A stretch of DNA of 35,015 nt from Rhodobium gokarnense (GTDB lineage Bacteria > Pseudomonadota > Alphaproteobacteria > Rhizobiales > Rhodobiaceae): contig NZ_JAOQNS010000020.1 of assembly GCF_025961475.1 (NCBI RefSeq), forward strand, positions 1 to 35,015, in the 5' to 3' direction. Below the pieces are notes generated by a model. The model had not been told where the DNA came from. It saw only the letters and a program-made list of their open reading frames with translations, and ran no database searches. This document shows, one piece after another, positions 701-32,821 of this stretch (its first letter is position 1; each line of letters begins with the position of its first letter). The translations under genes were made by a program, and so were the position numbers.

Positions 701-2758
701 CTACTCAAACTCCATGATCACCGCGTCGACGGCGAGGCTGTCGCCGGGCTCGCAGGTGATCTTGGAGACGACGAGGTCGCGCTCGGCGCGGAGCACGTTT
801 TCCATCTTCATGGCCTCCACGATGGCCAGCGCCTCGCCCGCCTTGACCTCCTGGCCCTCCGTCACATTGAGCGAGACGACGAGGCCCGGCATCGGGCAGA
901 GCAGCATCTTGGAGGTGTCGGGCGGCAGCTTGATCGGCATCAGGCGGTCGAGCTCGGCCATTGTCGGGCTCATCACCCGGGCCGTCATGGCAAGGCCGCG
1001 CCAGGAGATGTTGTAGCCGTTCTGGACCGGACGGACCTGGGCCGTCACCTCGCGGGTCCCGACGGTGCCGAGCCACAGCGCCTCGCCGGGTGCCCAGTCG
1101 GAGCGCACGGTCATCGGCTTGACGTCCGCCTCGTCGAAGGTCAGGTCGATCTCGATCGGCACGGTCGGATAGCCTTCCACAAGCTTGACCGCCACATAGT
1201 CCTTTTCGTGGTGCTTGGAGTGGTCGAGCTCGCGCACGTCGCGCTCCAGCGACACCACCCAGTCCTCGCGCACCCGGCCGGTATGCGGGCGCAGCCGGCC
1301 CGGCAGGTGGTCGAAGCGCTCCTTGTTGATGAGTTCCACCGACAGCGCCACGGCGGCCAGCACCTTCTCCGTCTCCGCCGTCGTCGGGATGCTGGCAAAG
1401 CCCTCCGGATACTCCTCGGCGATGAAACCGGTGGAGAGATTGCCCTCGGTCCAGCGCGGATGCTGCATCAGACCGGACAGGAACGGGATGTTGTGCTCGA
1501 TGCCGTCGATCAGATAGGCGTCGAGCGCATCGGCCTGGGCATGGATGGCGCCGGCGCGGGTCGGCGCGTGGGTGACCAGCTTGGCGATCATCGGGTCGTA
1601 GAACATGGAGATCTCGTCGCCCTCTTCCACGCCCGTGTCGACCCTGACGGTCGCCTCGTCGCTGCGCGCCTCCTCCGGCGGGCGGCAGCGCACCAGCCGG
1701 CCGATCGACGGCAGGAAGTTGCGATAGGGATCCTCGGCATAGACCCGGCTCTCCACCGCCCAGCCATTGAGCACGACGTCGTCCTGGGTCAGCGTCAGCC
1801 GCTCGCCGTTGGCGATGCGGATCATCTGTTCGACGAGGTCGATGCCGGTGATCAGTTCGGTCACCGGATGCTCGACCTGCAGGCGGGTGTTCATCTCCAG
1901 GAAATAGAAGCTCTTGTCCTGGCCGGCGACGAACTCCACGGTGCCGGCCGAGTCGTAGCCGACGGCCTTGGCCAGCGCCACGGCCTGGGCGCCCATCTTG
2001 GCCCGCGTCTCCGCGTCGAGCAGCGGCGACGGCGCCTCCTCGACGACCTTCTGGTTGCGGCGCTGGATGGAGCATTCGCGCTCGCCGAGATGGATGGCGT
2101 TGCCGTGCTTGTCGCCGAGCACCTGGATCTCGACATGGCGCGGGTTCTCGATGAACTTTTCGATGAAGACGCGGTCGTCGCCGAAGGAGCTTGCGGCCTC
2201 GGACTTGGAGCGGGCGAAGCCGTCGCGCACCTCGTCGTCGGACCAGGCGACGCGCATGCCCTTGCCGCCGCCGCCGGCCGACGCCTTGATCATCACCGGA
2301 TAGCCGATCTCCCGGGCGATCTTGACCGCCTCGTCGGGCGAGCCGATGACGCCGAGATAGCCGGGCACGGTGGAAACGCCGGCCTCGGCCGCGACCTTCT
2401 TGGACTCGATCTTGTCGCCCATCGCCTTGATGGCGTCCGGATGCGGGCCGATGAAGACGATGCCGGCCGCCTTCAGCATCTCCGGAAAGCTCGCCCGCTC
2501 CGACAGGAAGCCGTAGCCGGGATGGACGGCATCGGCGCCGGTCTGCTTGCAGGCGGCGAGGATCTTGTCGGCAACGAGATAGGACTCCGCGGCGGCCGCC
2601 GGGCCGATATGGACGGCCTCGTCGGCCATCTCCACATGCAGGGCGTCCTTGTCGGCCTCGGAATGGACGGCGACCGTCTTGATGCCCATCGTCCGGCAGG
2701 TCTTGATGATCCGGCAGGCGATCTCGCCGCGATTGGCAATCAGGATCTTGTCGAACAT
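701..2758 (-). CDS. pccA: Propionyl-CoA carboxylase alpha subunit (biotin carboxylase and biotin carrier)
   Basis: This 685-residue cytosolic subunit uses ATP and bicarbonate to carboxylate its own biotin. The beta subunit then uses that carboxyl group to make methylmalonyl-CoA from propionyl-CoA. Visible motifs are the N-terminal ILIANRGEIACR, the glycine-rich ATP loop AGGGGKGM (about 161-168), the biotin-carboxylase core EMNTRLQVEHPVTE (288-301), and the C-terminal biotinylation motif EAMKMEN with the acceptor Lys at 651. Length fits the PccA family. The ATG at 2758 has a purine-rich AAAGGGATGGGA upstream. pccB lies upstream on the same strand at 5035-6567, separated by two unrelated genes. 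An acetyl-CoA or methylcrotonyl-CoA carboxylase subunit is the alternative, but the single-chain carboxylase/carrier layout and the paired pccB favour propionyl-CoA. Confidence 0.93.
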   Translation of the reverse strand: MFDKILIANRGEIACRIIKTCRTMGIKTVAVHSEADKDALHVEMADEAVHIGPAAAAESYLVADKILAACKQTGADAVHPGYGFLSERASFPEMLKAAGIVFIGPHPDAIKAMGDKIESKKVAAEAGVSTVPGYLGVIGSPDEAVKIAREIGYPVMIKASAGGGGKGMRVAWSDDEVRDGFARSKSEAASSFGDDRVFIEKFIENPRHVEIQVLGDKHGNAIHLGERECSIQRRNQKVVEEAPSPLLDAETRAKMGAQAVALAKAVGYDSAGTVEFVAGQDKSFYFLEMNTRLQVEHPVTELITGIDLVEQMIRIANGERLTLTQDDVVLNGWAVESRVYAEDPYRNFLPSIGRLVRCRPPEEARSDEATVRVDTGVEEGDEISMFYDPMIAKLVTHAPTRAGAIHAQADALDAYLIDGIEHNIPFLSGLMQHPRWTEGNLSTGFIAEEYPEGFASIPTTAETEKVLAAVALSVELINKERFDHLPGRLRPHTGRVREDWVVSLERDVRELDHSKHHEKDYVAVKLVEGYPTVPIEIDLTFDEADVKPMTVRSDWAPGEALWLGTVGTREVTAQVRPVQNGYNISWRGLAMTARVMSPTMAELDRLMPIKLPPDTSKMLLCPMPGLVVSLNVTEGQEVKAGEALAIVEAMKMENVLRAERDLVVSKITCEPGDSLAVDAVIMEFE

Positions 2759-2888: not shown

Positions 2889-3581
2889 TCAGAACAGGTA
2901 GCCGAAAGCCTCGATCTCGCGCCGGTACCAGCCGCCGACCATGGTCCGCGTGTGCTCGGTATAATAGCTGCGATAGTCGCCTTCGCGTCCGCCGGAGACG
3001 TTGCTGACCGGCAGGGAAACCCGGCCGGAAAGGCCGACGGCGTCGAGCACGGCAGCAAAATCTTCCGAAAGAAGCTCGTAGCGGCCGACGAAATCGAGCG
3101 CGATCGCATCGTCGATCGCGTAGAGATCGAAATTCTCCACATAGGCGCGCTTCGGATTGCGCAGGAAATCGTCGAAGGATGGCCGCGGCTCCTTCGACTT
3201 GGTCTTGTAATAGTACCAGGAGACCTGCCGGTCCCAGGGATTCCGCTCGAAACTGAACTTGTAATAGCTGTTCCAGATGTCCTCGCCCACATAGGCGCGG
3301 ACCCGCCAGGCCGGCATGTGCTCGTAAAAGCCGACGCTCGGGTGGTAGGCGCGCTCCGGGCGCCCCAGCAGGCGCTTGACCAGCGGGCGCTTCGGCACCA
3401 TCGGATGGTCCAGCCGCCAGTTCTGGGCCCGCTCGTCCTTCCTCACCTTCATCAAGGCCTTGGAGGCTGGCGTGATGACGTCGTCCGGGCCGCAGACCTC
3501 GCTGAGCGCCGCCTCGATGGAGGTCGAGGCGGTCTTGTAGGTCTTGATGTAGATGAAGCGGTGTTCGTGCGACAGGATCAT
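2889..3581 (-). CDS. Sulfotransferase family protein, paralogue 1 (inside the pcc locus)
   Basis: A 230-residue protein of the small bacterial sulfotransferase type (Sulfotransfer_2-like), predicted to move a sulfuryl group from PAPS to an unknown acceptor. The 5'-phosphosulfate-binding-like motif KTYKTASTS is at 13-21. The 3'-phosphate-binding-like motif ERNPWDRQVS is at 112-121. An invariant His at 88 (YEHMPA) could be the catalytic base. No signal peptide or membrane segment is seen. Four close relatives sit at 7134-10022. It lies 130 bp upstream of pccA and 238 bp downstream of the coiled-coil membrane gene, so it may be cotranscribed with pccA. The ATG at 3581 is supported by the MILSH start shared with its paralogues, but its ribosome-binding site is weak. 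The acceptor cannot be inferred. Confidence 0.85.
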   Translation of the reverse strand: MILSHEHRFIYIKTYKTASTSIEAALSEVCGPDDVITPASKALMKVRKDERAQNWRLDHPMVPKRPLVKRLLGRPERAYHPSVGFYEHMPAWRVRAYVGEDIWNSYYKFSFERNPWDRQVSWYYYKTKSKEPRPSFDDFLRNPKRAYVENFDLYAIDDAIALDFVGRYELLSEDFAAVLDAVGLSGRVSLPVSNVSGGREGDYRSYYTEHTRTMVGGWYRREIEAFGYLF

Positions 3582-3819: not shown

Positions 3820-4527
3820 CTACCAGGGCATGAACGAGTTCATGAACGACATCGGCCGCGAGACGGACTGGTTCATCACCGCCATGTCGTGGCGCATGCG
3901 CCCCATATCCGCCGTCATGTAGCTCATCTTGCCGTTCATCTGCACCAGCTCCTGGCGGATCTGGGTCATCTCCTTGATGTGCTCCATCTTCTTGTTCATG
4001 GCGACCATCTGCTCGTAGAGCGGACGCATGGTGTCGAGATTGGCCATCTGGCCGGTCATCTTGTCGGTGTGGCCGGCCATTGCCGAGACCCGGATCGTCA
4101 TGGCGTCCATGGTCTTGGTCATCTCCTCCATGGATTTGGCGAGCTCGGTCATGTGCACGCCCATGTCCGGGTCGAACCGCTCGGCGATCTGCCGGATGTC
4201 GTGTGTCAGGCTGTAGATGAGGAAGAAGCCATAGGCGAGCAGGACCACCATGCACAGGAGGGCCGGATAGGCGATGAACTCCCAGCGCCTGGCGCTACGC
4301 TCGAAGGAGGAGACGAAGCGCTCCAGCGCATGGACCGGCATCGTCACCGTGCGGCAGGGATCGTCGCCCCCCTCGCCCGGCGCCGCCTCGCCTGTCGCCG
4401 TCTCGCCCGATGACGCCTCGACAACGGCGTCCGCGGGAGCCTCGCTCGCGTCCGGACCGGATGCGGCGGCCCGCTGGCCGTCGTCGCTCGATGGAGTATC
4501 CGTGCTGGTGGTGCCTTTTTTCGCCAT
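3820..4527 (-). CDS. Methionine-rich membrane-anchored coiled-coil protein, function unknown
   Basis: A 235-residue protein. Residues 1-60 are Ala/Glu/Ser-rich and probably disordered. One membrane segment spans about 86-106 (AYPALLCMVVLLAYGFFLIY), and residues 110-235 form a long helical region. Of the last 114 residues, 24 are Met, and most fall on heptad core positions. Charge near the membrane segment (RSARRWEF before it) suggests a cytosolic N-terminus and a periplasmic coil, but this is an inference. I recall similar unnamed proteins in other proteobacteria but assign no function. It lies between pccB and pccA on the same strand, 507 bp after pccB. The ATG at 4527 has a good GGAAGGAAG ribosome-binding site. 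Confidence 0.85.
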   Translation of the reverse strand: MAKKGTTSTDTPSSDDGQRAAASGPDASEAPADAVVEASSGETATGEAAPGEGGDDPCRTVTMPVHALERFVSSFERSARRWEFIAYPALLCMVVLLAYGFFLIYSLTHDIRQIAERFDPDMGVHMTELAKSMEEMTKTMDAMTIRVSAMAGHTDKMTGQMANLDTMRPLYEQMVAMNKKMEHIKEMTQIRQELVQMNGKMSYMTADMGRMRHDMAVMNQSVSRPMSFMNSFMPW

Positions 4528-5034: not shown

Positions 5035-6567
<1,533 letters not shown>

Positions 6568-7133: not shown

Positions 7134-7823
7134 CTAAAACTCAAACCCGAAGGCCTCGATCTCGCGCTTGTACCATTTCGCCACCATCTCCCGCGTCTCG
7201 TCAGTGAAGTGCTGGCGGTAGTCGCGCTCGGCCCGGTGACCGGTCTTGGCGCCGGGGATGGCGTCCGGCGGCTCAAGGCCGAGCCGGTCGAAGATGCGGT
7301 CGAGGCCGGCCTGCATGTCGTGATAGAGGATGACATCGTCGGCGACGATGCGGTTGTCGATCGAGTAGATGTCGAAGTTCCGAAGCCGCACCCGGCGATC
7401 TTCGGAGTGCATGTACTCGGTGAAGCTCGGCCGCTCGGCAAGGTTCCGCGTGCGCCAGAAATAGATCGAGACCTGCCGGTCCCAGGGATTGCGCTCGATG
7501 GAAAACTTGAAATAGCTGTCCCAGATCTGCCGCCCGAGATAGCGCCGCATCGGCCGTGCCGGCATGTGGGCATAGTAGCCGGTCCAGCGCACGCCGGGGT
7601 TCTTGCCCTTCAGCGACTTGATCTTGCCGCGCAGCGGCCACTGCCACCACGGCCATTTGTAGTTCCGCGGCCCGTGGTCCGACCTCAGCGCCTCGTCCTC
7701 CGGCATCAGCGGCGTGACGATGTCCTGCGGCCCGCAATAGCGCGAGAACAGCACCTCCATGCTGGATCCGGCGGTCTTGTAGGTCTTGAGGAAGATGAAG
7801 CGGTGGCGGTGCGAGACGATCAT
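7134..7823 (-). CDS. Sulfotransferase family protein, paralogue 2 (last gene of the array)
   Basis: A 229-residue small sulfotransferase-like protein and the distal gene of the operon starting at rluC. PAPS-type 5' motif KTYKTAGSS is at 13-21, invariant His at 86 (YAHMPA) and ERNPWDRQVS at 110-119. The C-terminus ends in the shared REIEAFGFEF. The stretch 40-80 is rich in Trp and Lys and unlike its paralogues, so this part may set acceptor choice. It starts 53 bp after paralogue 3, the only gap in the array, and its ribosome-binding site is weak. A 49-bp segment (7468-7516) over the ERNPWDR region is identical to paralogue 4. Predicted cytosolic; acceptor unknown. Confidence 0.87.
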   Translation of the reverse strand: MIVSHRHRFIFLKTYKTAGSSMEVLFSRYCGPQDIVTPLMPEDEALRSDHGPRNYKWPWWQWPLRGKIKSLKGKNPGVRWTGYYAHMPARPMRRYLGRQIWDSYFKFSIERNPWDRQVSIYFWRTRNLAERPSFTEYMHSEDRRVRLRNFDIYSIDNRIVADDVILYHDMQAGLDRIFDRLGLEPPDAIPGAKTGHRAERDYRQHFTDETREMVAKWYKREIEAFGFEF

Positions 7824-7876
7824 GGTGGCGTTGTGTTCTGGGGCCCGGCAGAAGGAGCCTTTATGACAGAGGCGTG

Positions 7877-8575
7877 TCAGAACCGATAGCCGAAGGCCGC
7901 GATTTCGTCGCGGTACCAGCCGGCGACGATGTCGCGGGTCTTGTCGGTGTAATGGTCGCGGTAGTGGCGCCGGTCGGTGCGGGTCCCGCTCTTGGTCGCG
8001 GGAAGCTGCGGCGGGTCCTGGATGCCGAGCCGGTGGAACACTTCCGCGACGTCTTCGGCGAGGTGTTCGTAACGAATGACGAAATCGACGGCCGGCCGGC
8101 CGGCAAGGCTGTAGATGGAAAAATTGTCGACCTTCTTGCGCCAGCGCGGCGAGGTGATGAAGGTCTCGAATGTCGGCCGCTTGTCCGCCTCCGGGTAGCG
8201 CCAGTAATAGAGCGAGACCTGGCGGTCCCAGGGATTGCGCTCCACGGTGATCTTGAAATAGCTGCGCCAGATGCGCGGGCCGACGAGCCGCAGCACCTCG
8301 CGCGCCGGCACGTGGTTGAAATAGCCGCGCCCGCGCGTGTGCTGGCCAAGCAGCCGGCCGAGGACGCGCTCCGGCCGGTTGATGCGCATGCCCGGCGCCA
8401 GCCAGTTCTGGGCGTTCGGTCCCGGCAGTGTCTCGCGCATCGCCTCGTCGCGCGGGCTGACCCGGGTGAGGATGTCCTTTTCCCCGCAGATCTGCGACAG
8501 CGCCAGCTCGATGCTGGTGCCGGCGGTCTTGCGGGTCTTCAGGAAGATGAAGCGATGCTCATGGGACAGGATCAT
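7877..8575 (-). CDS. Sulfotransferase family protein, paralogue 3
   Basis: A 232-residue member of the array. KTRKTAGTS lies at 13-21, Cys30-Gly31 as in all paralogues, His88 in FNHVPA and ERNPWDRQVS at 112-121. The region 180-232 carries the family signature DYR-like HYRDHY, TRDIVAGWY and the terminal AFGYRF. Its ATG overlaps the stop of paralogue 4 by 4 bp (ATGA). A GGAGG ribosome-binding site lies seven bases before the ATG, inside the end of the upstream gene, which suggests translational coupling. No export signal is seen. Substrate unknown. Confidence 0.88.
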   Translation of the reverse strand: MILSHEHRFIFLKTRKTAGTSIELALSQICGEKDILTRVSPRDEAMRETLPGPNAQNWLAPGMRINRPERVLGRLLGQHTRGRGYFNHVPAREVLRLVGPRIWRSYFKITVERNPWDRQVSLYYWRYPEADKRPTFETFITSPRWRKKVDNFSIYSLAGRPAVDFVIRYEHLAEDVAEVFHRLGIQDPPQLPATKSGTRTDRRHYRDHYTDKTRDIVAGWYRDEIAAFGYRF

Positions 8576-9309
8576 GCGCCGGCCTCCGCCGGTTCTGCTG
8601 GCGTCACGGCCGCAACGCCGTCGAAGCTGAAGCCGAAGGCGGCGATTTCCCGGGCGTACCAGTCGCCGACCAGTTCCCGGGTCTCGTCGTCATAGTGGCT
8701 CCGGTAGTCTTCTTTCCTGGGCCGCGCCTTGGCCTTGGCATGCGGCAGCTCCGGCGGGTTTTCGATGCCGATCCGCGCCATTGCGGCGGCGAAATCCGCC
8801 GACAGTGTCTCGTAGCGCAGAACCTGATCGACGACGATTGTCCCGTCGATGCCGTAGATACGGAAATTATCGATCCGCGCCTTCCACCTCGGATCGATCA
8901 GCCAGGTCTTGAAGTCGGGCCGGGTCTTTGGATCGCGGCAGCGGTAATAATAGTAGGAGACCTGCCGGTCCCAGGGATTGCGCTCGATGGAAAACTTGAA
9001 ATAGCGGTCCCAGGCGCTCTGCCCGATCAGCCGCCGCGCCGGCCGCGCCGGCATGTGGTTGGCGTAGACCGCACCGATCGCCCGTGCGTTGGCACCGAGC
9101 ATCAGACGCAGCCTCAAATCGAGCGGCAACGTGCTCCGCGCCGGCTCCGTGTTCTGCGGCCCCCGTCCCTCGCGCAACGTCTCGTCCCGCCCGAGCCAGG
9201 TGATCACGTCGTCCGGCCCGCAGACCGTCGACAGCGCCAGTTCCACGCTGGTCCCGCCCGTCTTGCGGGTCTTCAGGAAGATGAACTGATGGGCGTGGGA
9301 GACGATCAT
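8572..9309 (-). CDS. Sulfotransferase family protein, paralogue 4
   Basis: A 245-residue member of the array. KTRKTGGTS is at 13-21, His85 in YANHMPA and ERNPWDRQVS at 109-118. After the usual AFGFSF end it carries an extra Ala/Glu/Pro tail of about 16 residues, partly encoded where the next gene's ribosome-binding site lies. Its ATG overlaps the stop of paralogue 5 by 4 bp and has no clear ribosome-binding site of its own, so it probably depends on coupling. It shares an exact 49-bp block with paralogue 2 (8957-9005 here). Acceptor unknown. Confidence 0.88.
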   Translation of the reverse strand: MIVSHAHQFIFLKTRKTGGTSVELALSTVCGPDDVITWLGRDETLREGRGPQNTEPARSTLPLDLRLRLMLGANARAIGAVYANHMPARPARRLIGQSAWDRYFKFSIERNPWDRQVSYYYYRCRDPKTRPDFKTWLIDPRWKARIDNFRIYGIDGTIVVDQVLRYETLSADFAAAMARIGIENPPELPHAKAKARPRKEDYRSHYDDETRELVGDWYAREIAAFGFSFDGVAAVTPAEPAEAGA

Positions 9310-10022
9310 GGGATGCGGGCCGGCGCCTCGAATGTGTAGCCGAAGGCGGCGATCTCGCGGGCGTAGATCCTGCCCACGGCCTCGCGCGTCTCGTCCGTAT
9401 AGAAGCTGCGATAGTCCCCGGCCCCGTCCGGCCGCACGCCCGTCTTGGCGTGCGGCAGCTCCGGCGGATCGGCAATGCCGAGGTCGCCGACGAAGGCCGC
9501 AAAATCCTCCGACAGCCGTTCATAGCGCAGGACCACGTCGGCGACGATCCGGCTCTTCAGGCTGTATATCTCGAAATTGTTGACCGGTTTGCGCCATTTG
9601 TCGGTCAGCACGAACTCCTCGAAGGTCGGCCGGGTGTCCGCCTTCTTGTAGAGCCAGAAATAGTAGGAGACCTCCCGGTCCCAAGGGTTCCGCTCAATGG
9701 ACACCTTGCGGTAGGCGTCGAACGTCTTCGCACCCGCCCGGTTCCGCACCTGCTCCGCCGTCATGTGGTTCCAGTAGCAGAGCCCGGCATGGCGGTCGTC
9801 GGCGCCCCAGAGTTTCTTCAGGCGCCAGAACCACGGCCGCCGGTCCGGCGGAATGTCGTAGTTGCGCGGCACATGCCCGGCATTCTTCACGTCTTCCTTG
9901 CCGGCAATCGGCGTCACCACATCGTCCGGCCCGCAGACATGCGACAGTGCCAGCTCCACGCTGGTGCCGGCGGTCTTCTTGGTCTTCAGGAAAATGAAGC
10001 GGTGCCGGTGGGAGAGGATCAT
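9306..10022 (-). CDS. Sulfotransferase family protein, paralogue 5 (first gene of the array)
   Basis: A 238-residue protein, the first sulfotransferase after the ATP12 gene. KTKKTAGTS is at 13-21, His86 in YWNHMTA and ERNPWDREVS at 110-119; the Gln found in all other paralogues is Glu here. It lacks the PAR that follows the His in paralogues 2-4, so it is the most divergent of the array in this region. Its ATG overlaps the ATP12 stop by 4 bp, with a purine-rich AAGGGGGG upstream inside the ATP12 gene. This joins the array to the housekeeping operon. A short APARIP tail follows the shared AFGYTF end. Confidence 0.88.
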   Translation of the reverse strand: MILSHRHRFIFLKTKKTAGTSVELALSHVCGPDDVVTPIAGKEDVKNAGHVPRNYDIPPDRRPWFWRLKKLWGADDRHAGLCYWNHMTAEQVRNRAGAKTFDAYRKVSIERNPWDREVSYYFWLYKKADTRPTFEEFVLTDKWRKPVNNFEIYSLKSRIVADVVLRYERLSEDFAAFVGDLGIADPPELPHAKTGVRPDGAGDYRSFYTDETREAVGRIYAREIAAFGYTFEAPARIP

Positions 10023-10807
10023 TCGCCCCCCTTCCCCGGTCGCAGCGCGTCGATGACGAGGACCGCGGCCTCGAACTCCGCCGCACGATGGGCGCGCCGC
10101 TCCAGCGCCTCCTCGTCGCGGCCCCAGAGCTGCATGTTCCAGTCCTCGTCCACATGGGCGGCCTGCCAGGCATCGGCCCCGGAAAGCTCGCCGTGCCAGA
10201 CCGAAAGCGCCAGCAGCGCCGAGCCGGTCAGCGTCGTCGCCACATGGAGGGCTGCCAGCGGCAGCGGGTCGACCGGCGCAAGGCTGTCGCGGATGGCCGT
10301 CAGCACCTCCGCGTTCTGGTCGACATGCATGACGCCTTCGGCGAGCGTGAACCGGCCCGCATAGCGTCCCTCGGCCCAGGCAATCACCGGATTCCAGAGC
10401 GCGTTCTGGCGCTCCACCAGTTCCTGCGGATTGCCGGCCCGATAGATGAGGAGGTCGCCGCCGGCATAGCGGGCGATCTCGCCGCGCACGGCATCGGCCT
10501 CGCGCGCAACCGCATCAAGGGCCGAATTGGCGAGCCGCGTCAGCGGCATCTTGCCCGGATCGATCACCGTCTCCTGCGCCGCCCATTCGGCGGCGATGGC
10601 CGCCGCGATCGCCCCATGCGGCACCACCAGCCGGCTGCCGGCCGGCGTGCGGATCGGCCTTCCGTCCAGCACCACCGCATGACCGTCGCCTTCTGCGACC
10701 GCCGCGGCCTCCTTGTAGAACCGCTTCGGCAGGTCGCGCCGTGCGTGGGCCCGGGCCTTTTCGACCGGGTCCTCGCCGTGCTGCGGCAGGTCGAAGAGAT
10801 CGCGCAT
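10019..10807 (-). CDS. ATP12-family F1-ATPase assembly chaperone
   Basis: A 262-residue protein of the ATP12 family, known in mitochondria and alphaproteobacteria as a chaperone that holds the F1 alpha subunit during ATP synthase assembly. Recognisable segments are RFYKEAAAV near the start, VVLDGRPIRTPAG, the AAIAAEWAAQETVIDP block, and the Asp/Tyr-rich GGDLLIYRA region. Length is usual for the bacterial family. Its start ATG shares one base with the stop of the HAD gene upstream, and its stop overlaps the first sulfotransferase. No ATP synthase gene is in the window. The family call is firm; the role is by homology. Confidence 0.9.
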   Translation of the reverse strand: MRDLFDLPQHGEDPVEKARAHARRDLPKRFYKEAAAVAEGDGHAVVLDGRPIRTPAGSRLVVPHGAIAAAIAAEWAAQETVIDPGKMPLTRLANSALDAVAREADAVRGEIARYAGGDLLIYRAGNPQELVERQNALWNPVIAWAEGRYAGRFTLAEGVMHVDQNAEVLTAIRDSLAPVDPLPLAALHVATTLTGSALLALSVWHGELSGADAWQAAHVDEDWNMQLWGRDEEALERRAHRAAEFEAAVLVIDALRPGKGGE

Positions 10808-11484
10808 CAGGCCACCCTTTCCCAGGCGAAAAGGTCCGAGACGGCCGGCAGCAGCGCGTCGAAACGGTCGATGATGGCCTCCGCGCCGCCCTCGGCCAGC
10901 CGTTTCACCGGGTGGTAGCCCCAGGAAACGCCGATCGCCCGCGCCCCGGCGGCCCGCGCCATCGCCATATCGAAGCCGGTATCGCCGACGACGACCGTGT
11001 TCTGCGGCTCCGCGCCGGTCTCGGTCATCGCATTGAGGATCATGCCCGGATGGGGCTTCGAGGGTGCATCGTCGGCGGTCTGGATGGAGGCGAACCGGCC
11101 GGCGAGCCCGTGGGCGGCGAGCACCGCATCGACGCCGCGCCGCGCCTTGCCGGTGGCGATCCCCAGCAGCACGTCGTCGCGGGCGGCGAGCGCATCGATG
11201 GCCGCCATGGCACCGTCGAACATCGGCTCGTGATAGGTCTTGTCCGTGCGCATCCGGAAGAAGGCGTCCTTGTAGGAGGCGGCGAGCACGGAGACCGGCG
11301 CATCCGGCGTCTTGCGCGTCAGCACCGAGAACGCCTCGTTGAGCGACAGGCCGACGATGGACAGCGCCACCTCGCGCGGCGGCACGCGCAGGCCGTTGGC
11401 GGCAAACGCCTCGCTCAGCGCGGCAAAGATCATGTCCTGCGAATCGACAAGCGTGCCGTCGCAGTCGAAGACGATGAGATACAT
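10807..11484 (-). CDS. HAD superfamily hydrolase, phosphoglycolate-phosphatase-like
   Basis: About 225 residues. Motif I FDCDGTLVDS at 6-15 supplies the nucleophile Asp7 and acid/base Asp9. Motif II is the GIATGK segment. The Lys of motif III is in SKPHPGM. Motif IV is VVGDTGFDM. A helical cap lies between motifs I and II, as in HAD subfamily IA. Substrate is likely a small phosphomonoester such as phosphoglycolate, but this is inferred. I chose ATG 11484 because homologues begin close to LIVFDCDG. A TTG at 11496, overlapping the upstream stop, would add four residues and is also possible. It lies in the rluC-ATP12 operon. Confidence 0.88.
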   Translation of the reverse strand: MYLIVFDCDGTLVDSQDMIFAALSEAFAANGLRVPPREVALSIVGLSLNEAFSVLTRKTPDAPVSVLAASYKDAFFRMRTDKTYHEPMFDGAMAAIDALAARDDVLLGIATGKARRGVDAVLAAHGLAGRFASIQTADDAPSKPHPGMILNAMTETGAEPQNTVVVGDTGFDMAMARAAGARAIGVSWGYHPVKRLAEGGAEAIIDRFDALLPAVSDLFAWERVA

Positions 11485-11492
11485 GGCCTTAC

Positions 11493-11795
11493 TCAATTCT
11501 CGTCCCGGTCCGGCGCGTCTTGGGGAACGCCATCCCGGGGCATTTTTTGGTCGTGGTCCCGCTCAAGCCGCTTCAGCCGTTCCTCGTGGTCGGCAACGCG
11601 GGCCTCAAGGAGGTCGTTGGCGCGGCGCAGCTCCGCGGCGAGTTCCGACAGCGCCTCGGCAGTCGCGTCGCTGCCGCGCGGCCGAAGCATCTTCGAGGCC
11701 CCGCGCCGCGACACCATAAAGGCACCGATAAGCGCCGTCACGGCCACCACGAGGGCAACGAAGATCGTCACCGAATAGCCGGCGCCCTCCATCAT
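11493..11795 (-). CDS. Small membrane protein with C-terminal coiled coil
   Basis: A 100-residue protein. One N-terminal membrane helix (about 7-27, VTIFVALVVAVTALIGAFMV) is followed by basic residues, then a charged helix about 47-80 (ELAAELRRANDLLEARVADHEERLKRL) likely to form a coiled coil, and an acidic Asp/Glu/Pro tail. I do not recognise a named family. It starts 21 bp after rluC with a strong GGAGGGG ribosome-binding site and ends overlapping the start region of the HAD gene, so it belongs to the same operon. The membrane helix followed by basic residues suggests a cytosolic coil. Confidence 0.75.
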   Translation of the reverse strand: MMEGAGYSVTIFVALVVAVTALIGAFMVSRRGASKMLRPRGSDATAEALSELAAELRRANDLLEARVADHEERLKRLERDHDQKMPRDGVPQDAPDRDEN

Positions 11796-11816: not shown

Positions 11817-12824
11817 TCAGCGTCCATCGTTCCCCTCCAGTTCCTCTGCCGCGTCATAGTCCGCCGGGTCGAGGCCGAGGAGATTGAAGGACTGCGCCAT
11901 GTGCGGCGGCAGCGGCGCCGTGACGTCGATGGTGCCGCCGGAAGGGTGCGGCATGACGATCCGGTGCGCAAAGAGGTGCAGCCGGTTCTGGATGCCGCCG
12001 GGCAGCTCCCAGTTCTCGACCCGGAAATATTTCGGATCGCCAACGATCGGATGGCCGATATGGGCGGTGTGGGCGCGAAGCTGGTGGGTGCGGCCGGTGA
12101 CCGGCTTCAGCATCAGCCAGGAGAGTTTCTGGCCGACCTGGTCGACGACGGAATAGAAGCTGACGGCGTGGCTTGCCCCGTCCGCGCCGTGGCGGCTGAC
12201 GCGCATGCGGTCGCCCTCCGGCCCCTCCTCCTTGGCGAGGTAGGTGGAGATGCGCCCGCTCGACGGCCGCGGCACGCCGGCAACGAGCGCCCAGTAGACC
12301 TTGTTGGTGTCGCGCGAGCGGAACGCCGTGGACAGGTCGCGTGCGGCCTTGCGCGTCTTGGCGATGACGAGGACGCCGGCCGTGTCCCGGTCGAGCCGGT
12401 GGACGAGCCGCGGCTTCTGGCCCTGGCGGTCGCGCATGCTGTCGAGCATCTTGTCGACATGGGTGGAAAGCCCCGAACCGCCCTGGACCGCAAGGCCCGC
12501 CGGCTTGTTCAGCACCATGACGTCGCGGTCTTCATAGAGCGTGATCGATTTGAGGTACGCCGCATCGTCGCCCGTCGGCTTTCGCGGCGCCTTGGTCGGT
12601 GCCTCGGCCGCCGCGACATCGCCGAGCGGCGGCACGCGCACGGACTGGCCGGCGGCGAGCCGGGTCGAGGTCTTGGCGCGCCCGCCGTCGACGCGCACCT
12701 GTCCGGTGCGCACGAGCTTCTGCAGCTGCGCGAAACCGATGCCGGGATAGTGCGTCTTGAACCAGCGGTCGAGGCGCATGCCGGCCTCGTCGCCGCTGAC
12801 GGACACGAAGTCGATGCCTGCCAT
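11817..12824 (-). CDS. RluC/RluD-type ribosomal large subunit pseudouridine synthase
   Basis: A 335-residue enzyme that converts specific uridines in 23S rRNA to pseudouridine. An N-terminal S4-like RNA-binding segment (DRWFKTHYPGIGFAQLQKL, RTGQVRVDG) precedes the catalytic domain. That domain has the RluA-family motif HRLDRDTAGVLV with the catalytic Asp, and GRTHQLRAH near the C-terminus. I chose ATG 12824 (MAGIDFVSV); the longer frame to 12851 would need a TTG start and adds nine unconserved basic residues. It is the first gene of the operon that runs through HAD, ATP12 and the sulfotransferases. Telling RluC from RluD needs alignment. Confidence 0.9.
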   Translation of the reverse strand: MAGIDFVSVSGDEAGMRLDRWFKTHYPGIGFAQLQKLVRTGQVRVDGGRAKTSTRLAAGQSVRVPPLGDVAAAEAPTKAPRKPTGDDAAYLKSITLYEDRDVMVLNKPAGLAVQGGSGLSTHVDKMLDSMRDRQGQKPRLVHRLDRDTAGVLVIAKTRKAARDLSTAFRSRDTNKVYWALVAGVPRPSSGRISTYLAKEEGPEGDRMRVSRHGADGASHAVSFYSVVDQVGQKLSWLMLKPVTGRTHQLRAHTAHIGHPIVGDPKYFRVENWELPGGIQNRLHLFAHRIVMPHPSGGTIDVTAPLPPHMAQSFNLLGLDPADYDAAEELEGNDGR

Positions 12825-12851
12825 GTCGTTTCGTCTCGATTGTCGCCGCAA

Positions 12852-23172: not shown

Positions 23173-23744
23173 TCAGGCTGCCGCGTCGAGGATCGCGTCG
23201 ATCTCGGCGCCGACCTGGTCGACGGTCTGTGTGCCGTCGATCGTCTGCAGCATATTCTTGTCGCGGTAGTAGCCGATCAGCGGCTTGGTCTGGTTGTGAT
23301 AGACCGTCAGCCGCTTCTTCAGGGTTTCCGCATTGTCGTCGGCGCGCTCGCCGCCGGTCTCCCGGGCGCGCTTCTCGATGCGCTCAAGGAGGATCTCGTC
23401 ATCGACGTCAAGCAGGATGACCGCGTCGAGGCCGAGCCCCTTTTCCGCCATCACCCGGTCGAACGCCTCGGCCTGGGCGATGGTGCGCGGGAAGCCGTCG
23501 AGCATGAAGCCGTTAGCGCAGTCCGGTTGCTCGAGGCGCTCCGCGATGATGCCGACCACCACCTCGTCCGGCACCAGGTCGCCCCGGTCCATGATCTCCT
23601 TGGCCTTCAGGCCCACTTCGGTCTCTGCCTTGACCGCGGCCCGCAGCATGTCTCCGGTCGACAACTGCACGATGCCACGGTTTTCCACGATACGCTTTGC
23701 CTGGGTTCCCTTGCCGCTGCCCGGTGGCCCAAGGAAAATCAACC

Positions 23745-23748
<4 letters not shown>
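23173..23748 (-). CDS. adk: Adenylate kinase, short form
   Basis: A 191-residue enzyme that interconverts ATP plus AMP and two ADP. The P-loop [10 protein letters not shown] is at 7-16. AMP-binding segments ([17 protein letters not shown]) and the R-rich GGERADDN lid region are present. It lacks the long zinc-type lid and fits the short alphaproteobacterial form. Its ATG overlaps the secY stop by 4 bp, so it is translationally coupled to secY. Confidence 0.97.
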
Positions 23749-25076
<1,328 letters not shown>

Positions 25077-25282
25077 ACCCGTCTCCGCCTAAAACGGCAG
25101 CGGCGATCCTGCGATCGCCCCCACCGTCTTCCGTGTCATTTTTGCCGCCCTGCCCCTTGCCGGACCGGCGTCGGTTTCCCGGCGACGGTCAGGGGTTCCG
25201 GCGGAAAGGCTCAAGGTCCCAGAGATGAAGGACCCCGAAAGGACTGCGCCGACGCCCGCGTCCGGGGTGCGGCGCACCCGGA

Positions 25283-25777
25283 TCACTCCGCGTCCTTGGC
25301 GTCGCCCTTGGAGGTCTCCGGCGCAATCACCGTGACCTTGCCGCCGGCCTTCTCGACCGCCGCAATGGCGGCCTTGGAGGCGCCGGCGATCTCGAACGTC
25401 ACCTTGTCCTTCAATTCGCCGTCGGCGAGAAGCCGCACACCGTCCTTCGCGCGCCGCACGACGCCCGCCGCGACCAGCGCTTCGACGGTCACCGTCGCCT
25501 TCTTGTCGAGCTTGCCGGCGTCGATCGCCTGCTGCACCCGGCCGAGGCTGGTGACGTTGTAGGACTTGGCGAAGATGTTGCTGAAGCCGCGCTTCGGCAG
25601 GCGCCGGTGCAGCGGCATCTGGCCACCTTCGAAGCCCTTGATGGCGACGCCCTCGCGGGACTTCTGACCCTTGACGCCGCGTCCGCCGGTCTTGCCCTTG
25701 CCGGAGCCGATACCGCGGCCGACGCGCTTGGCGGTTTTCACCGCGCCGTCGTTGTCTTTGATTTCGTTGAGCTTCAT
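25283..25777 (-). CDS. rplO: 50S ribosomal protein L15
   Basis: A 164-residue large-subunit protein. [12 protein letters not shown], the Gly/Lys-rich [22 protein letters not shown] extension that reaches into 23S rRNA, and [18 protein letters not shown] are diagnostic. It has a short acidic C-terminal tail. It follows rpmD after 19 bp. Confidence 0.97.
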
Positions 25778-25796
25778 CGTCGTCTCCCGGTGCGCC

Positions 25797-25991
25797 TTAG
25801 TCTTCTTCGACGACGCGAACCAAATGCTGCACGCTGCGGATCATGCCGCGCACTTCCGGCGTGTCCTGAAGCGTGCGGCGGCGGTGCATTTTGTTGAGGC
25901 CGAGGCCGACAAGCGTCGCCCGCTGCTCTTTCGGACGCCGGATCGGGCTGCCGATTTGCTCGACCGTGATCGTTTTTTCAGTAGTGGCCAT
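25797..25991 (-). CDS. rpmD: 50S ribosomal protein L30
   Basis: A 64-residue large-subunit protein. [24 protein letters not shown] and [14 protein letters not shown] match the family throughout. It follows rpsE after 41 bp. Confidence 0.96.
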
Positions 25992-26032
25992 CAGATCGCT
26001 CCCGGATCAACTGGTGACGCGCGTGAGGGAAA

Positions 26033-26581
26033 TCAACCCTCGGTGACGTCGACGATATCGCGCCGACGCGCCTGCAGCGCCGAAACTTTGAGGCCGCGGC
26101 GGGCGGCGACCGAACGCGGGCTGTCTTCCCGCTTCAGCGCCTCGAACGTCGCGCGAACCATGTTGTACGGATTCGACGTGCCGAGCGACTTGGCGACCAC
26201 GTCCTGCATGCCGAGCGTCTCGAACACGGCGCGCATCGGACCGCCGGCGATGATGCCGGTGCCCGGAGGGGCCGCACGCAGCACAACCCGGCCGGCGCCG
26301 TGGCGCCCTTCCACGTCGTGGTGGAGCGTCCGGCCCTCGCGCAGCGGCACCCGGATCATGCCGCGCTTGGCAGCTTCCGTCGCCTTGCGGATCGCCTCGG
26401 GCACCTCACGCGCCTTGCCGTGGCCGAAACCGACCCGGCCCTTCTGGTCGCCGACGACGACCAGCGCCGCAAAGCCGAACCGACGGCCGCCCTTGACCAC
26501 CTTGGCAACGCGGTTGATGTGGACGAGCTTGTCGACGAACTCGCTGTCGCGGTCCTGCTCGCGCATGTCCTGTCTTGCCAT
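26033..26581 (-). CDS. rpsE: 30S ribosomal protein S5
   Basis: A 182-residue small-subunit protein active in decoding accuracy. The double-stranded-RNA-binding-like domain has [41 protein letters not shown], and the C-terminal half has [15 protein letters not shown]. Normal length and position between rplR and rpmD. Confidence 0.97.
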
Positions 26582-26620
26582 ACCGTTCTTCCGTTATCCG
26601 TTGCGCCCCGAACGGGACGA

Positions 26621-26977
26621 TCAGAAATCCAGGCCGCTCTCGCGGGCCGCATCGGCCAGCGCCTTGACGCGGCCATGGTAGATGTAGCCGCCGCGATCGA
26701 AGATGACCTGCTTGACGCCGGCCTCGGTCGCCCGCTCGGCAATCAGCTTGCCGACGGCCTCTGCGGCACCCTTGTCGCCGCCGTTCTTCAGCTTGTCGCG
26801 CATGGTCTTTTCCAGCGACGAGGCGGACGCGAGCGTGCGCCCGTTGCCGTCGTCGATGACCTGGGCATAAATGTGCCGACCCGACCGGAAGACGCTGAGG
26901 CGCGGACGCCCGTTGGCAGCCTTCTGGATCTGCCGGCGCACCCGGATGCGACGCTTGTTGAAAGTATTCTGAGCCAT
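26621..26977 (-). CDS. rplR: 50S ribosomal protein L18
   Basis: A 118-residue protein that binds 5S rRNA in the central protuberance. [29 protein letters not shown] and the C-terminal [20 protein letters not shown] are diagnostic. It lies 11 bp after rplF. Confidence 0.97.
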
Positions 26978-26988
26978 CGGTCTCGCGC

Positions 26989-27525
26989 CTACTTCTTCTT
27001 GCCTTCTTTGCGGACGATGAATTCGTCCGCATATTTGACGCCCTTGCCCTTATAGGGCTCCGGCGGCCGGTAATCGCGGATCTCCGCCGCCACCTGACCA
27101 ACCTGCTGGCGGTCGATGCCGGTAATCGTGACTTCCGTCGGCTTCGGGCACGCGATGTCGATGCCCTCCGGGATCGGATAGATCACGTCGTGGCTGAAGC
27201 CGAGCGCGAGCTGCAGGTTCTTGCCCTGCACCTGGGCGCGGTAGCCGACGCCGTTGATCTGCAGCTTCTTCTCAAAGCCGTCCGATACGCCGGTCACGAT
27301 GTTCGAGACCATGGTCCGCGACATGCCCCACATCGACCGGGCCTTCTTGTCGTCGGCGTCGACCGGCGTGATCTTGATGCCGTCGTCGGTCTTTTCCACC
27401 TTGCACGTATCGCTGACGGTAAAGGACAAGCTGCCCTTCGGACCTTTCACCGACACGGTCTGACCGTCGATATCCGCCGAGACCCCGCTCGGAACCGGCA
27501 CCGCTAATTTGCCTATCCGGGACAT
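26989..27525 (-). CDS. rplF: 50S ribosomal protein L6
   Basis: A 178-residue large-subunit protein near the factor-binding centre, with two alike domains. [33 protein letters not shown] and the C-terminal [11 protein letters not shown] are hallmarks. It follows rpsH in the usual order. Confidence 0.97.
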
Positions 27526-27573
27526 TTCACCAATCCGTGCTCTTCGTTGTTCCGTTGCCCTGCCCTTTGCGCC

Positions 27574-27972
27574 TTAGAAGACGCGGCAGAGCACCTCGCC
27601 GCCGACATTCTTGTCGCGGGCTTCGTGATCGGCCATCACGCCCATCGGCGTCGACAGGATCGACACGCCGAGGCCGTTGTGGATCCGCGGGATCGTCTTC
27701 ACCGAGGTGTAGACGCGCCGGCCGGGGGTCGAGACGCGCTCGATCTCCTGGATCACCGGCTGACCGTCGAAATACTTCAGCGAGATCTCGATTTCGGACT
27801 TGCCGCCGTCGAAGTCCACCGAGGTGTAACCCCGGATGAACCCTTCCGACTCCAGCACGTCGAGAACGCGCTTGCGCAACGTCGAAGCGGGCGTCGAGAC
27901 CGTCGACCGGCCGCGCATCTGCGCGTTCCGGATACGGGTCAGCATATCGCCCAGGGGGTCGCTCATCGACAT
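27574..27972 (-). CDS. rpsH: 30S ribosomal protein S8
   Basis: A 132-residue small-subunit protein that binds the central domain of 16S rRNA. In other bacteria it also represses the spc operon mRNA near L5. The start [18 protein letters not shown] at 27972 is preceded by AAGGAGA; a longer upstream frame is spurious. [19 protein letters not shown] and [10 protein letters not shown] close the protein. Confidence 0.96.
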
Positions 27973-27985
27973 GGATGCGTTCTCC

Positions 27986-28291
27986 TTACCAACTCGACTT
28001 GACCATGCCGGGCACCAGGCCCAGCGACCCGAGCTCACGAAGCGCAACGCGCGACATCTTGAGCTTGCGGTAGTAGCCTCGCGGCCGGCCGGTCACTTCA
28101 CAGCGATTGCGAATGCGCGTCTTGGAAGAGTTCCGCGGCAGTTCCGCAAGCTTGAGCTGCGCCTGGAATCGCTCTTCCAGCGTCAGCGATTCGTCCTTAG
28201 CCGCAGCCTTCAGGGCCTTGCGCTTGTCCGCGTATTGGTCGACGAGCTTCCGCCGCCGCTTGTTCTTCTCGATCGCGCTTTTCTTCGCCAT
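27986..28291 (-). CDS. rpsN: 30S ribosomal protein S14, zinc-free form
   Basis: A 101-residue small-subunit head protein. The start [16 protein letters not shown] at 28291 was chosen over a longer frame on family grounds. It has the C-terminal [19 protein letters not shown] but no paired CxxC zinc ligands, so it is the long zinc-independent type. It lies between rplE and rpsH. Confidence 0.96.
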
Positions 28292-28322
28292 ACCTTCGCC
28301 TCGTCGAAAAACCGTTGCCCGA

Positions 28323-28883
28323 TCACGTCCGGAACGGGAAATTGAACTCGCGCAGCAGCGCGCGCGCCTCGTCATCGGTCGTTGCCGTGGTGCAGACGAC
28401 GATGTCCATGCCCCAGATCTGATCGACCTTGTCGTAGTTGATCTCCGGGAACACGATGTGTTCCTTGATGCCGAGCGCGTAATTGCCCTGCCCGTCGAAG
28501 CTCTTCGGGTTCAGGCCGCGGAAGTCCCGAACGCGCGGCAGCGCGATCGTCACCAGACGGTCGATGAACTCGAACATCCGCGCCTTGCGCAGCGTCACCT
28601 TGCAGCCGATCTCCATGCCCTCGCGCAGCTTGAACGTGGCGATGGACTTGCGGGCCCGGGTGATCACGGGCTTCTGGCCGGCGATCAGCGCCAGGTCGGC
28701 GGCCGCCGACTTGACCTTCTTGGAATCGCCGACGGCCTCGCCGACGCCGATGTTCAGAACGACCTTTTCAAGCGCCGGAATCTGCATCGGGTTCTTGTAC
28801 CCGAACTCTTCCAGCATCTTGGTGCGCACGACGTCCGCGTAATGGGTCTTCAGCCGCGGCACGTAAGTGGTGGCTTCAGCCAT
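28323..28883 (-). CDS. rplE: 50S ribosomal protein L5
   Basis: A 186-residue protein that binds 5S rRNA and the P-site t[21 protein letters not shown]-like [36 protein letters not shown] and the end [14 protein letters not shown] identify it. Its ATG overlaps the last 8 bp of rplX, so it is coupled. Confidence 0.97.
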
Positions 28884-29193
28884 CGATCAAATCTCCCGAA
28901 CGCTTGGCGAACCGCACCTTCCGGCCATCGTCGAGGACCTTGGTCCCGATCCGCGTCGGCTTGTCGTCCTTGGGATCGGCAATCGCGATGTTGGACAGGT
29001 GGATAGGCATTTCCTTGGAAATGATGCCGGCTTCCTGGGTCGCGGTCTGGCGCTGGTGGCGCTTGGCGACGTTGATGCCGCGCACCACGGCGCGGTTTTC
29101 CTTCGGCATCATGCGGATCACTTCGCCGATGCGACCCTTGTCGCGCCCGGCGAGGACGACGACGCGGTCGCCCTTCTTGATCTTCAAAGACAT
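28876..29193 (-). CDS. rplX: 50S ribosomal protein L24
   Basis: A 105-residue assembly-initiator protein of the large subunit. The KOW motif is [20 protein letters not shown] near the N-terminus. The start is ATG 29193, sharing one base with the rplN stop; the longer open frame upstream is an out-of-frame shadow of rplN. It ends inside the start of rplE. Confidence 0.96.
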
Positions 29194-29561
29194 CACAGCA
29201 CCTCCGGTGCGAGCGAGATGATCTTCATATGCTGCTTCGCTCTCAGTTCGCGCGGCACCGGGCCGAAAATACGGGTACCGACCGGCTCTTTCTTGTTGTC
29301 GACCAGCACCGCCGCATTGCGATCGAAGCGGATGACGCTGCCATCCGGACGACGGATGTCCTTGGCGGTGCGCACGACCACGGCCTTCATGACCTGGCCC
29401 TTTTTCACGCGGCCGCGCGGGCTCGCTTCCTTGACGCTGACAACGATGATGTCGCCGACGCCCGCATATTTGCGCTTGGAGCCGCCAAGCACCTTGATGC
29501 ACATGACACGGCGCGCGCCGGAATTGTCAGCCACGTCGAGATTGGTCTGCATCTGAATCAT
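29193..29561 (-). CDS. rplN: 50S ribosomal protein L14
   Basis: A 122-residue protein at the subunit interface. [35 protein letters not shown] and the C-terminal [18 protein letters not shown] are typical. It overlaps rplX by one base and follows rpsQ after 64 bp. Confidence 0.97.
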
Positions 29562-29625
29562 GACTGCCCGCCTCGTAACTCTCTGCGCGCCTGCCGCTTA
29601 CCGGTCCCGGCGCTCTATTCCATTC

Positions 29626-29874
29626 TTACTGGTCGCCGGCCACTTCGGCCTTGACCACAACCCAAGACTTCGACCGCGAGATCGGCCTGCTTTCCTCGAT
29701 CGCGACCAGGTCGCCGACCTTGTAGGCGTTGTTCTCGTCATGCGCCTTGTAGTTCTTGGTGCGGCGCACGGTCTTCTTGAACAGCGGGTGCGTGAAGCGC
29801 CGCTCGACGCGGACAACCACCGTCTTGTCGCTCTTGTCGCTCACCACGACGCCATGAAGCAGCCGTTTCGGCAT
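29626..29874 (-). CDS. rpsQ: 30S ribosomal protein S17
   Basis: An 82-residue OB-fold protein that binds the 5' domain of 16S r[19 protein letters not shown] and [19 protein letters not shown] are diagnostic. It follows rpmC after 12 bp and is the last gene of the S10 operon in the classical scheme. Confidence 0.96.
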
Positions 29875-29886
29875 GAAGTTTCTCCG

Positions 29887-30087
29887 TTATGCGCTTTCAG
29901 CAGTGCGCTTCTCGCGCATGATGGTCTCGATCCTGGCGAGGTCGCGGCGAATCTGCCGGACGCGCGCCGTGTTCTCCAACTGACCCGTCGCCCGCTGGAA
30001 GCGCAGATTGAACTGCTCCTTCTTCAGCTTGCCGAGCTCATCGGTGAGCTGGTCGACGGTCATTGCTCTGACGTCACTTGCCTTCAT
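29887..30087 (-). CDS. rpmC: 50S ribosomal protein L29
   Basis: A 66-residue helical hairpin protein near the peptide exit tunnel, part of the docking site for trigger factor and [26 protein letters not shown] and [14 protein letters not shown] are typical. The start is ATG 30087 (MKASDVRAM); upstream extension of the frame lies in the rplP gene. Confidence 0.96.
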
Positions 30088-30115
30088 GGCCGTAACCCTT
30101 GTTCCTGTCGCGCCG

Positions 30116-30529
30116 CTATTCGGCGATGCGCTGCACGAACCGCGTGCGGATCGGCAGCTTCGCGGCACCGAGACGCAGCGCCTCGCGGGCGATCGGCTCG
30201 GCGACGCCGTCGATTTCGAAAACGATCCGGCCCGGCTTGACCCGGGCGGCCCAGAATTCCGGCGTGCCCTTGCCCTTACCCATGCGCACTTCGGTCGGCT
30301 TCTTCGACACCGGCACATCCGGGAACACCCGGATCCAGACGCGTCCGGCGCGCTTCATGTGGCGGGTGATGGCCCGCCGCGCGGCCTCGATCTGGCGGGC
30401 GGTGATCCGCTCCGGCTCCAGCGCCTTCAGGCCGTAGGAACCGAAATTCAGATCGGTGCCACCCTTGGCGTTGCCATGGATGCGGCCCTTGTGCTGCTTG
30501 CGAAATTTCGTGCGCTTCGGTTGGAGCAT
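30116..30529 (-). CDS. rplP: 50S ribosomal protein L16
   Basis: A 137-residue protein next to the A-site and peptidyl-transferase centre. [35 protein letters not shown] and [18 protein letters not shown] are hallmarks. Length and place between rpsC and rpmC are normal. Confidence 0.97.
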
Positions 30530-30572
30530 GGTCTCGCTCTTATTCTAGTCGTTCACCAACAGGCGTTTGTCG

Positions 30573-31678: not shown

Positions 31679-31680
31679 CG

Positions 31681-31959: not shown

Positions 31960-31974
31960 TTCTTCCTGCCTCTC

Positions 31975-32808: not shown

Positions 32809-32821
32809 TGTTCTATCCGCC

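Follow-up and report, generated by a model that had tools for sequence, protein, structure and literature searches.

Divergent, predicted PAPS-type sulfotransferases arrayed behind an ATP12 gene in Rhodobium gokarnense

The excerpts of the literature available to us describe several systems against which the present locus can be set. Sulfotransferases of the family PF03567 (Sulfotransfer_2) carry the signature PXXRXXS as their 3'-phosphate site (PMC11625862), and activity is lost in the H142A mutant of HS2ST (PMC6094399). Teg12, Teg13 and Teg14 are related sulfotransferases from one gene cluster that each target a separate residue of the same aglycone (PMC11727664). XssA and XssE, from the synechan cluster of Synechocystis 6803, are sulfotransferases of a bacterium that are linked to a sulfated exopolysaccharide (PMC8205485), and the sulfated capsule cluster of Vibrio sp. 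KMM 8419 holds genes for sulfotransferases, for glycans and for synthesis of the donor 3'-phosphoadenosine-5'-phosphosulfate (PAPS) together (PMC11641403). Here we analyse a 35,015-nucleotide stretch of Rhodobium gokarnense (contig NZ_JAOQNS010000020.1, positions 1 to 35,015; hereafter the window), in which four adjacent genes of this kind, ST1 to ST4, follow the gene for an ATP12 chaperone and a fifth, ST5, lies nearby.

An earlier reading made from the letters of the window (the sequence-only reading) had reported four adjacent paralogues with a set of shared motifs, three ATGA overlaps and one 53-bp gap, and all of this proved exact on recheck. From ATP12 to ST4 the junctions are -4, -4, -4 and +53 bp, and 566 bp separate ST4 from the carboxyl transferase gene pccB. 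ST1-ST4 all have KTxKT[AG][GS][TS]S at residues 13-21, C30-G31, H86, ERNPWDR[QE]VS at 110-119 and an AFG[YF]xF end. The count of four local copies was one short, as it missed ST5, which a family search of the R. gokarnense genome found (42.3 bits; 44% identity with ST1 when all five are aligned) between pccA (701-2758) and the gene for a 235-residue protein (3820-4527), with pccB beyond. The genes in question are as follows.

9306..10022, reverse strand: ST1, Sulfotransfer_2 protein of 238 residues, overlapping ATP12 by 4 bp
8572..9309, reverse strand: ST2, Sulfotransfer_2 protein of 245 residues, overlapping ST1 by 4 bp
7877..8575, reverse strand: ST3, Sulfotransfer_2 protein of 232 residues, overlapping ST2 by 4 bp
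7134..7823, reverse strand: ST4, Sulfotransfer_2 protein of 229 residues, 53 bp from ST3
2889..3581, reverse strand: ST5, fifth paralogue, 230 residues, in the pccB-pccA interval
9771..9905, reverse strand: ST1 residues 40-84, variable segment, likely on the acceptor side

All five window proteins pass the PF03567 gathering cut-off (22 bits) over their full length, at 30.1-42.3 bits (30.1-39.7 for the array four). Membership in PF00685 (Sulfotransfer_1), the other family that the sequence-only reading had named, was rejected for the array proteins and ST5 alike, with no match at E <= 0.1 (ST1-ST4) or E <= 0.01 (ST5), and no NCBIfam model matches ST1-ST4 at E <= 0.1. AlphaFold2 gave a confident model of ST1 (predicted local distance difference test score, pLDDT, 92.7; 110-row alignment) and of ST4 (pLDDT 93.9; 78 rows), the latter with the same order of helices and strands and small shifts. 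With the ST1 model as sole query against the PDB, the best 50 of 489 matches at E <= 10 are all sulfotransferases by title or name, which bears out, at weak E-values, the PAPS-type fold that had been expected. A solved close relative was sought and rejected: ST1 alone gave one chance match (E 0.33), the 110-row profile reached SULT-type chains only at E 0.0044 or worse, and a relative from Sinorhizobium meliloti, used as query, had no match at E <= 0.01.

The predicted site residues are the same in every copy. K16, which we take to be the equivalent of the known PAPS-loop lysine, is present in five of five window copies, as are P113, R116 and S119. Across 110 aligned relatives, H86, R111, N112, S119 and Y153 occur in all 110, K16 in 109, P113 in 108 and R116 in 81, with lysine in its place in 23. 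Most of these relatives were collected with two patterns, [ST][IVF]ERNPWD and MI[LV]SH[REA]H[RQ]F, so conservation at residues 108-115 and 1-9 is biased upward; K16, H86, S119 and Y153 are columns outside both. The spacing P113-x-x-R116-x-x-S119 agrees with the PXXRXXS signature as excerpted from PMC11625862. The layout suggests that K16 is the PAPS-loop lysine and H86 the catalytic base, in agreement with that source and with the available account of HS2ST H142A (PMC6094399). When the profile was compared with a Sulfotransfer_1 protein in order to align H86 with the histidine there, the match started after H86. Taken together, the sequences and the modelled fold class make it well supported that ST1-ST5 are PAPS-type sulfotransferases.

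For their role, we lean slightly toward the reading that they are PAPS-dependent glycan sulfotransferases, each paralogue with its own acceptor position, and that the array is made together with ATP12. ST1-ST5 would then be soluble, active enzymes of the cytosol, supplied with PAPS by CysD and CysN/C encoded elsewhere in the genome. The donor would be bound by the N-terminal K-T-x-K-T-A-G-T-S loop and by R-N-P-W-D-R-x-V-S as the predicted 3'-phosphate site; His86 would abstract a proton from the acceptor hydroxyl, sulfate would be transferred in one step, and CysQ would remove the 3'-phosphoadenosine-5'-phosphate. Hydroxyl groups on a cell-surface glycan, or on its lipid-linked repeat unit, would be the likeliest acceptors; sulfate would be added at the cytoplasmic face, ahead of export, and the position may be set for each paralogue by the variable segment 40-84. 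Different acceptor positions would fit the divergence of the paralogues, by analogy with the Teg12-Teg14 precedent as excerpted (PMC11727664). Gene spacing is what suggests co-expression with ATP12, in which case output would follow the housekeeping transcript.

Judged from its genes, R. gokarnense can make PAPS. The genome has one adenosine-5'-phosphosulfate (APS) kinase, which lies in a run on another contig (C11; L132, 140000-157000) that encodes the APS-kinase/GTPase together with PF01507, PF00459, ABC-2 permease, GT2 and nucleotidyl-transferase proteins, as well as a PF03567 match and, by eye, an rmlA-like open reading frame (ORF). The PF00459 and PF01507 proteins are presumably CysQ and CysD, and the run is likely the genome's own sulfated-glycan locus. 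Within the window, 39 distinct ORFs were scanned (cut-offs differ between scans) without a match to any family of glycosyltransferases or of PAPS synthesis, and these ORFs do not form a sulfated-polysaccharide biosynthesis cluster with adjacent glycosyltransferase, export and PAPS genes. For the ORFs scanned, both absences named in the sequence-only reading are borne out, with the correction that PAPS synthesis is encoded elsewhere in the genome. In 35 genomes the subfamily is matched at E <= 5.3e-59, and 33 of them were checked for APS kinase; at E < 1e-50 the kinase is present in 33/33, compared to 24/33 genomes without the subfamily (5 weak, 4 none).

A glycan acceptor is the better guess, and it comes from the surroundings of some relatives elsewhere; those in Alphaproteobacteria do not show it. 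We scanned genes no more than two away from a sulfotransferase, using crude gene calls and leaving out the window, 11 pcc-region loci and seven near-identical kin loci. At 31 loci outside Alphaproteobacteria, the 136 near genes include 18 with a Glycos_transf_1 (PF00534) match and nine with a Sulfotransfer_1 match. A control for these loci only, of 95 genes lying six to nine genes away (23 of the 31 loci), has two Glycos_transf_1 matches, and the 25 families listed for it, down to those with one member, do not include Sulfotransfer_1. The plasmid loci inspected (3 of 79) are a Leisingera exopolysaccharide cluster, a Salipiger exopolysaccharide cluster and a capsule-like locus on S. meliloti pSymB, each with a relative. 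The pSymB relative (L144:9001-9741; 33.5% identical to ST1) adjoins KpsF/GutQ, an acyltransferase and an ABC transporter.

Several findings weigh against this reading. Few lineages account for most of the glycosyltransferase neighbours: 11 of the 15 loci spanned by the adjacent glycosyltransferase gene cluster belong to Ectothiorhodospiraceae or Desulfobulbaceae. At 28 Alphaproteobacterial loci outside the pcc region, only four near genes of 108 match PF00534; metabolic genes, those for dehydrogenases included, are at least as frequent, and proteins of 3-hydroxyisobutyrate type (four) and succinate-dehydrogenase type (three) recur. The APS-kinase contrast (Fisher two-sided p 0.002) ignores kinship and uses subfamily-less genomes picked by handle order, and the kinase is common, being present in 11 of 14 control genomes, so this evidence is permissive only. 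A genome of the same genus (G001) has an APS kinase yet lacks the subfamily throughout, including both slots described below, which makes the array dispensable. Residues 40-84 of ST1 and ST2 evolve faster than the rest of these proteins between the two Rhodobium species (dN/dS, the ratio of nonsynonymous to synonymous divergence, 0.21 versus 0.09 and 0.15 versus 0.13; orthologue identity 87 versus 95% and 84 versus 92%), and the segment is therefore not specially protected there. Finally, in the fold search the best E is 1.1e-3, with none <= 0.001, and query template-modelling (TM) scores are 0.35-0.49 among the best 50 of 489, where HS2ST is absent; these weak values leave the fold class clear and the kinship distant.

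The same evidence bears on a rival that we regard as possible but rather doubtful, namely that the substrates of the five enzymes are small molecules or lipids, not polysaccharide, as for the cytosolic SULT enzymes. The leaders among those best 50 fold matches are an Alicyclobacillus sulfotransferase, SULT2A1, SULT1 enzymes and the glycopeptide enzymes StaL, Teg12 and Teg14, the proteins are short (229-245 residues) and the Alphaproteobacterial neighbours are mostly metabolic. However, the sequence family is PF03567 and not PF00685, SULT entries are abundant in the PDB so that the ranking probably favours them, and some relatives adjoin glycosyltransferases, an O-antigen ligase or polysaccharide export genes.

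The paralogues also differ from one another. Array pairs are 45-52% identical overall, with 24-37% in residues 40-84 and 49-57% in the remainder; for all five paralogues the values are 44-52%, 18-37% and 48-57%. Mean column entropy in the 110 relatives is 1.14 bits at residues 1-37 versus 2.71 at residues 38-80. Rhodobium orientis has the same four plus one copies at 90-95% identity and dN/dS 0.07-0.14, indicative of purifying selection; residues 40-84 are 84-98% identical between these orthologues (dN/dS 0.02-0.21), and in ST3-ST5 they change more slowly than the rest. The claim that the middle stretch, about 40-80, differs from copy to copy is therefore upheld, with the addition that it is largely kept between orthologues. 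Synonymous divergence (dS) between array paralogues is 0.67-0.94. In both the 110-protein and the 50-protein tree, the closest partner of each window copy is its R. orientis counterpart (100% bootstrap), and a single clade of the four array genes and their R. orientis counterparts is rejected by the approximately unbiased (AU) test (p-AU 0.0012; the group was set by the finding of the sequence-only reading, with the first tree already seen). Recent tandem duplication is rejected by the dS values together with the AU test, and by these sequence measures the array copies are old. ST1 groups with the first-position copy of Prosthecomicrobium hirschii (support 99/87 in the 110-protein tree; 92/41, with two more rows, in the 50-protein tree), and many internal forks are weak.

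This divergence stands against an unlikely alternative in which the copies have redundant specificity and form a dosage array, supplying more of one activity and kept by coupling to ATP12. All five do share the same site residues, copy number in the slot ranges from one to four, and the middle segment of ST1 and ST2 is less conserved than the remainder, as such a model would allow. Against it, the copies are only 44-52% identical and of old origin, the AU test rejects a single clade of the array four, and the middle segment is 84-98% kept between orthologues.

The setting of the array is unusual and partly conserved; the kind of enzyme is already known. Its neighbours in the window are listed below.

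10019..10807, reverse strand: ATP12 chaperone gene (PF07542)
10807..11496, reverse strand: HAD-family hydrolase gene (Pfam)
11493..11795, reverse strand: 100-residue protein, no family above cut-off
11817..12851, reverse strand: RluA-family pseudouridine synthase gene, RluC-like (profile match)
5035..6567, reverse strand: pccB-like carboxyl transferase gene, bounding the array slot on its far side
3820..4527, reverse strand: 235-residue protein in the ST5-pccB interval, no Pfam match; a 50% identical copy in array-less G001
701..2758, reverse strand: biotin carboxylase / PCC_BT gene (pccA-like; profile match)

A scan of named genomes gave 142 relatives; the 77-locus counts rest on the best 80 of them. 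The ATP12-pccB slot holds copies in 4 of 77 loci: R. orientis (four), P. hirschii (two), a metagenome-assembled genome (MAG) labelled Pseudoxanthobacter soli (two) and a Tepidamorphaceae MAG (one). Two genomes of the P. hirschii genus group, G229 and G070, have three and two copies there, so that three families besides that of Rhodobium hold one to three. The 4-bp overlap with ATP12 occurs in seven of eight rows (the window, R. orientis, P. hirschii, the Pseudoxanthobacter MAG, G119, G229 and G070). In the remaining row, the Tepidamorphaceae MAG, the two genes lie 4 bp apart. G119, with identical gaps, is probably the same organism as the Pseudoxanthobacter MAG. The interpretation offered by the sequence-only reading is borne out in part. 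Clustering of the genes in relatives, on which it had staked its proposal, is found in R. orientis and three other families, and the ATP12 overlap recurs in two other families. The overlaps are not all fixed, since a 17-bp gap separates copies 1 and 2 of R. orientis. In the literature searches, which covered few subscription papers, we did not find repeated placement of divergent sulfotransferase sets behind ATP12; titles and abstract openings in the same coverage showed nothing on clustered sulfotransferases of such a kind, and nothing there brought together three or more of sulfotransferase, propionyl-CoA carboxylase, ATP12 and Hyphomicrobiales.

The second slot, upstream of pccA, is occupied in 8 of 77 loci (L031, L042, L048, L051, L052, L054, L055 and L070), with nothing or only a protein termed c5 recognised between copy and pccA (the tblastn search for c5 omitted L048 and L055). 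A single 28-row clade (support 100/99) unites these copies with ST5 and also includes copies from other places. The c5 family (313-382 residues; no Pfam match for the one member scanned) lies no more than two genes from a sulfotransferase in eight of nine loci, as listed here.

L042:2301-3449, L052:9355-10353, L070:10795-11817, L061, L057, L075, L076, L035: c5-family loci

As a constant partner c5 was rejected, because it is missing from R. gokarnense (G000) and R. orientis (G002) and so is not needed here. In G001 the order is pccA, c5 protein, 235-residue protein, pccB, 113 bp, ATP12. That genome also has a 414-residue PF03567 protein of another kind (C4, L127:9257-10501; 82 bits), about 3 kb from pccA and near a protein with a weak, sub-cut-off Glycos_transf_1 match.

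The junctions could also be taken to mean that the coupled copies assemble into a single hetero-oligomeric enzyme, as 4-bp overlaps suggest matched amounts. We consider this very improbable, because one overlap is replaced by the 17-bp gap in R. orientis, copy number varies among relatives with the same slot, and the site residues are kept in every copy. That mobile genes accumulated by chance, with no joint role, is scarcely credible: both slots are empty in G001 and homologues occur on plasmids, but the same slot is used in four named families, with the 4-bp ATP12 overlap in three, the genes are under purifying selection and ST1 has no phage match.

The subfamily is widely spread and comes in sets of divergent paralogues. 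Its records carry labels of ten bacterial phyla as well as of Marine Group II archaea, many from metagenome bins, and matches occur in 68 of 297 genomes of the order (E <= 0.001) and in 16 of 385 of a class sample (E <= 1e-25; R. gokarnense included). Phage origin was rejected, as searching the phage collection with ST1 gave no match. ST1 has matches in 79 plasmid records, all below 60% identity and 62 from Sinorhizobium; three of eight plasmid records among the matches listed call the protein hypothetical. Of the 77 loci, 12 have tandem runs (same strand, gap <= 120 bp), with at most four copies in a run. A Sumerlaeota MAG (L060:7726-10021) has a window-like layout of three tandem copies joined by two 4-bp overlaps. 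A 1.4-Mb genome of the same class has five scored copies on a 12.4-kb contig (L141, G425:C15:1-12422) and one elsewhere, and a sixth similar ORF on that contig, seen by eye, would make two runs of three, some overlapping. Marine Group II MAGs carry one copy (L088:10001-10705) and a tandem pair (L099:1128-2585). The R. gokarnense genome itself has 10 PF03567 matches at E <= 0.001, nine above the cut-off and five within the window; a second tandem PF03567 pair, of another kind, has ORFs of 254 and 259 residues (G000:C4, L130:8348-9923). Elsewhere in the window, 23173-34478 holds genes for adenylate kinase (adk), SecY, L6 and L3, a ribosomal-protein operon about 13 kb from the array. A scan for promoters and terminators yielded nothing usable (one promoter-like site versus 1.5 expected; 11 terminator-like sites versus 8.0), and so gave no support to the shared promoter that the sequence-only reading had proposed.

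A stronger form of the glycan reading, which we offer tentatively and think improbable as a whole, is a combinatorial sulfation set, in which four to five old paralogues each take their own position on one surface glycan and are constitutive through a translational tie to ATP12. If true, it would be a bacterial analogue of glycosaminoglycan sulfation patterning outside any glycan gene cluster. To our knowledge, few bacterial sulfotransferases have a known acceptor. A shared donor site with differing middle segments offers a practical route to the residues that choose acceptor position, and the array could guide a search for new sulfated glycans in Hyphomicrobiales.

Compared to PF03567, whose seed is mostly chondroitin and heparan sulfate sulfotransferases, the array shares the full-length profile, the loop lysine, a conserved histidine and, going by the excerpted source, PXXRXXS (PMC11625862), whereas its proteins are bacterial, have 229-245 residues, begin directly at the PAPS loop and match no NCBIfam model. 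Teg12, Teg13 and Teg14 belong to the Sulfotransfer_1 superfamily and lie amid pathway genes, whereas the array lies amid housekeeping genes. XssA and XssE, likened here by their excerpted description and not by sequence, sit inside an almost complete exopolysaccharide cluster, unlike the array. The Vibrio sp. KMM 8419 capsule cluster, as far as the available text describes it, resembles the C11 run of R. gokarnense, again by description and not by sequence, whereas the array lies apart from any cluster of that kind.

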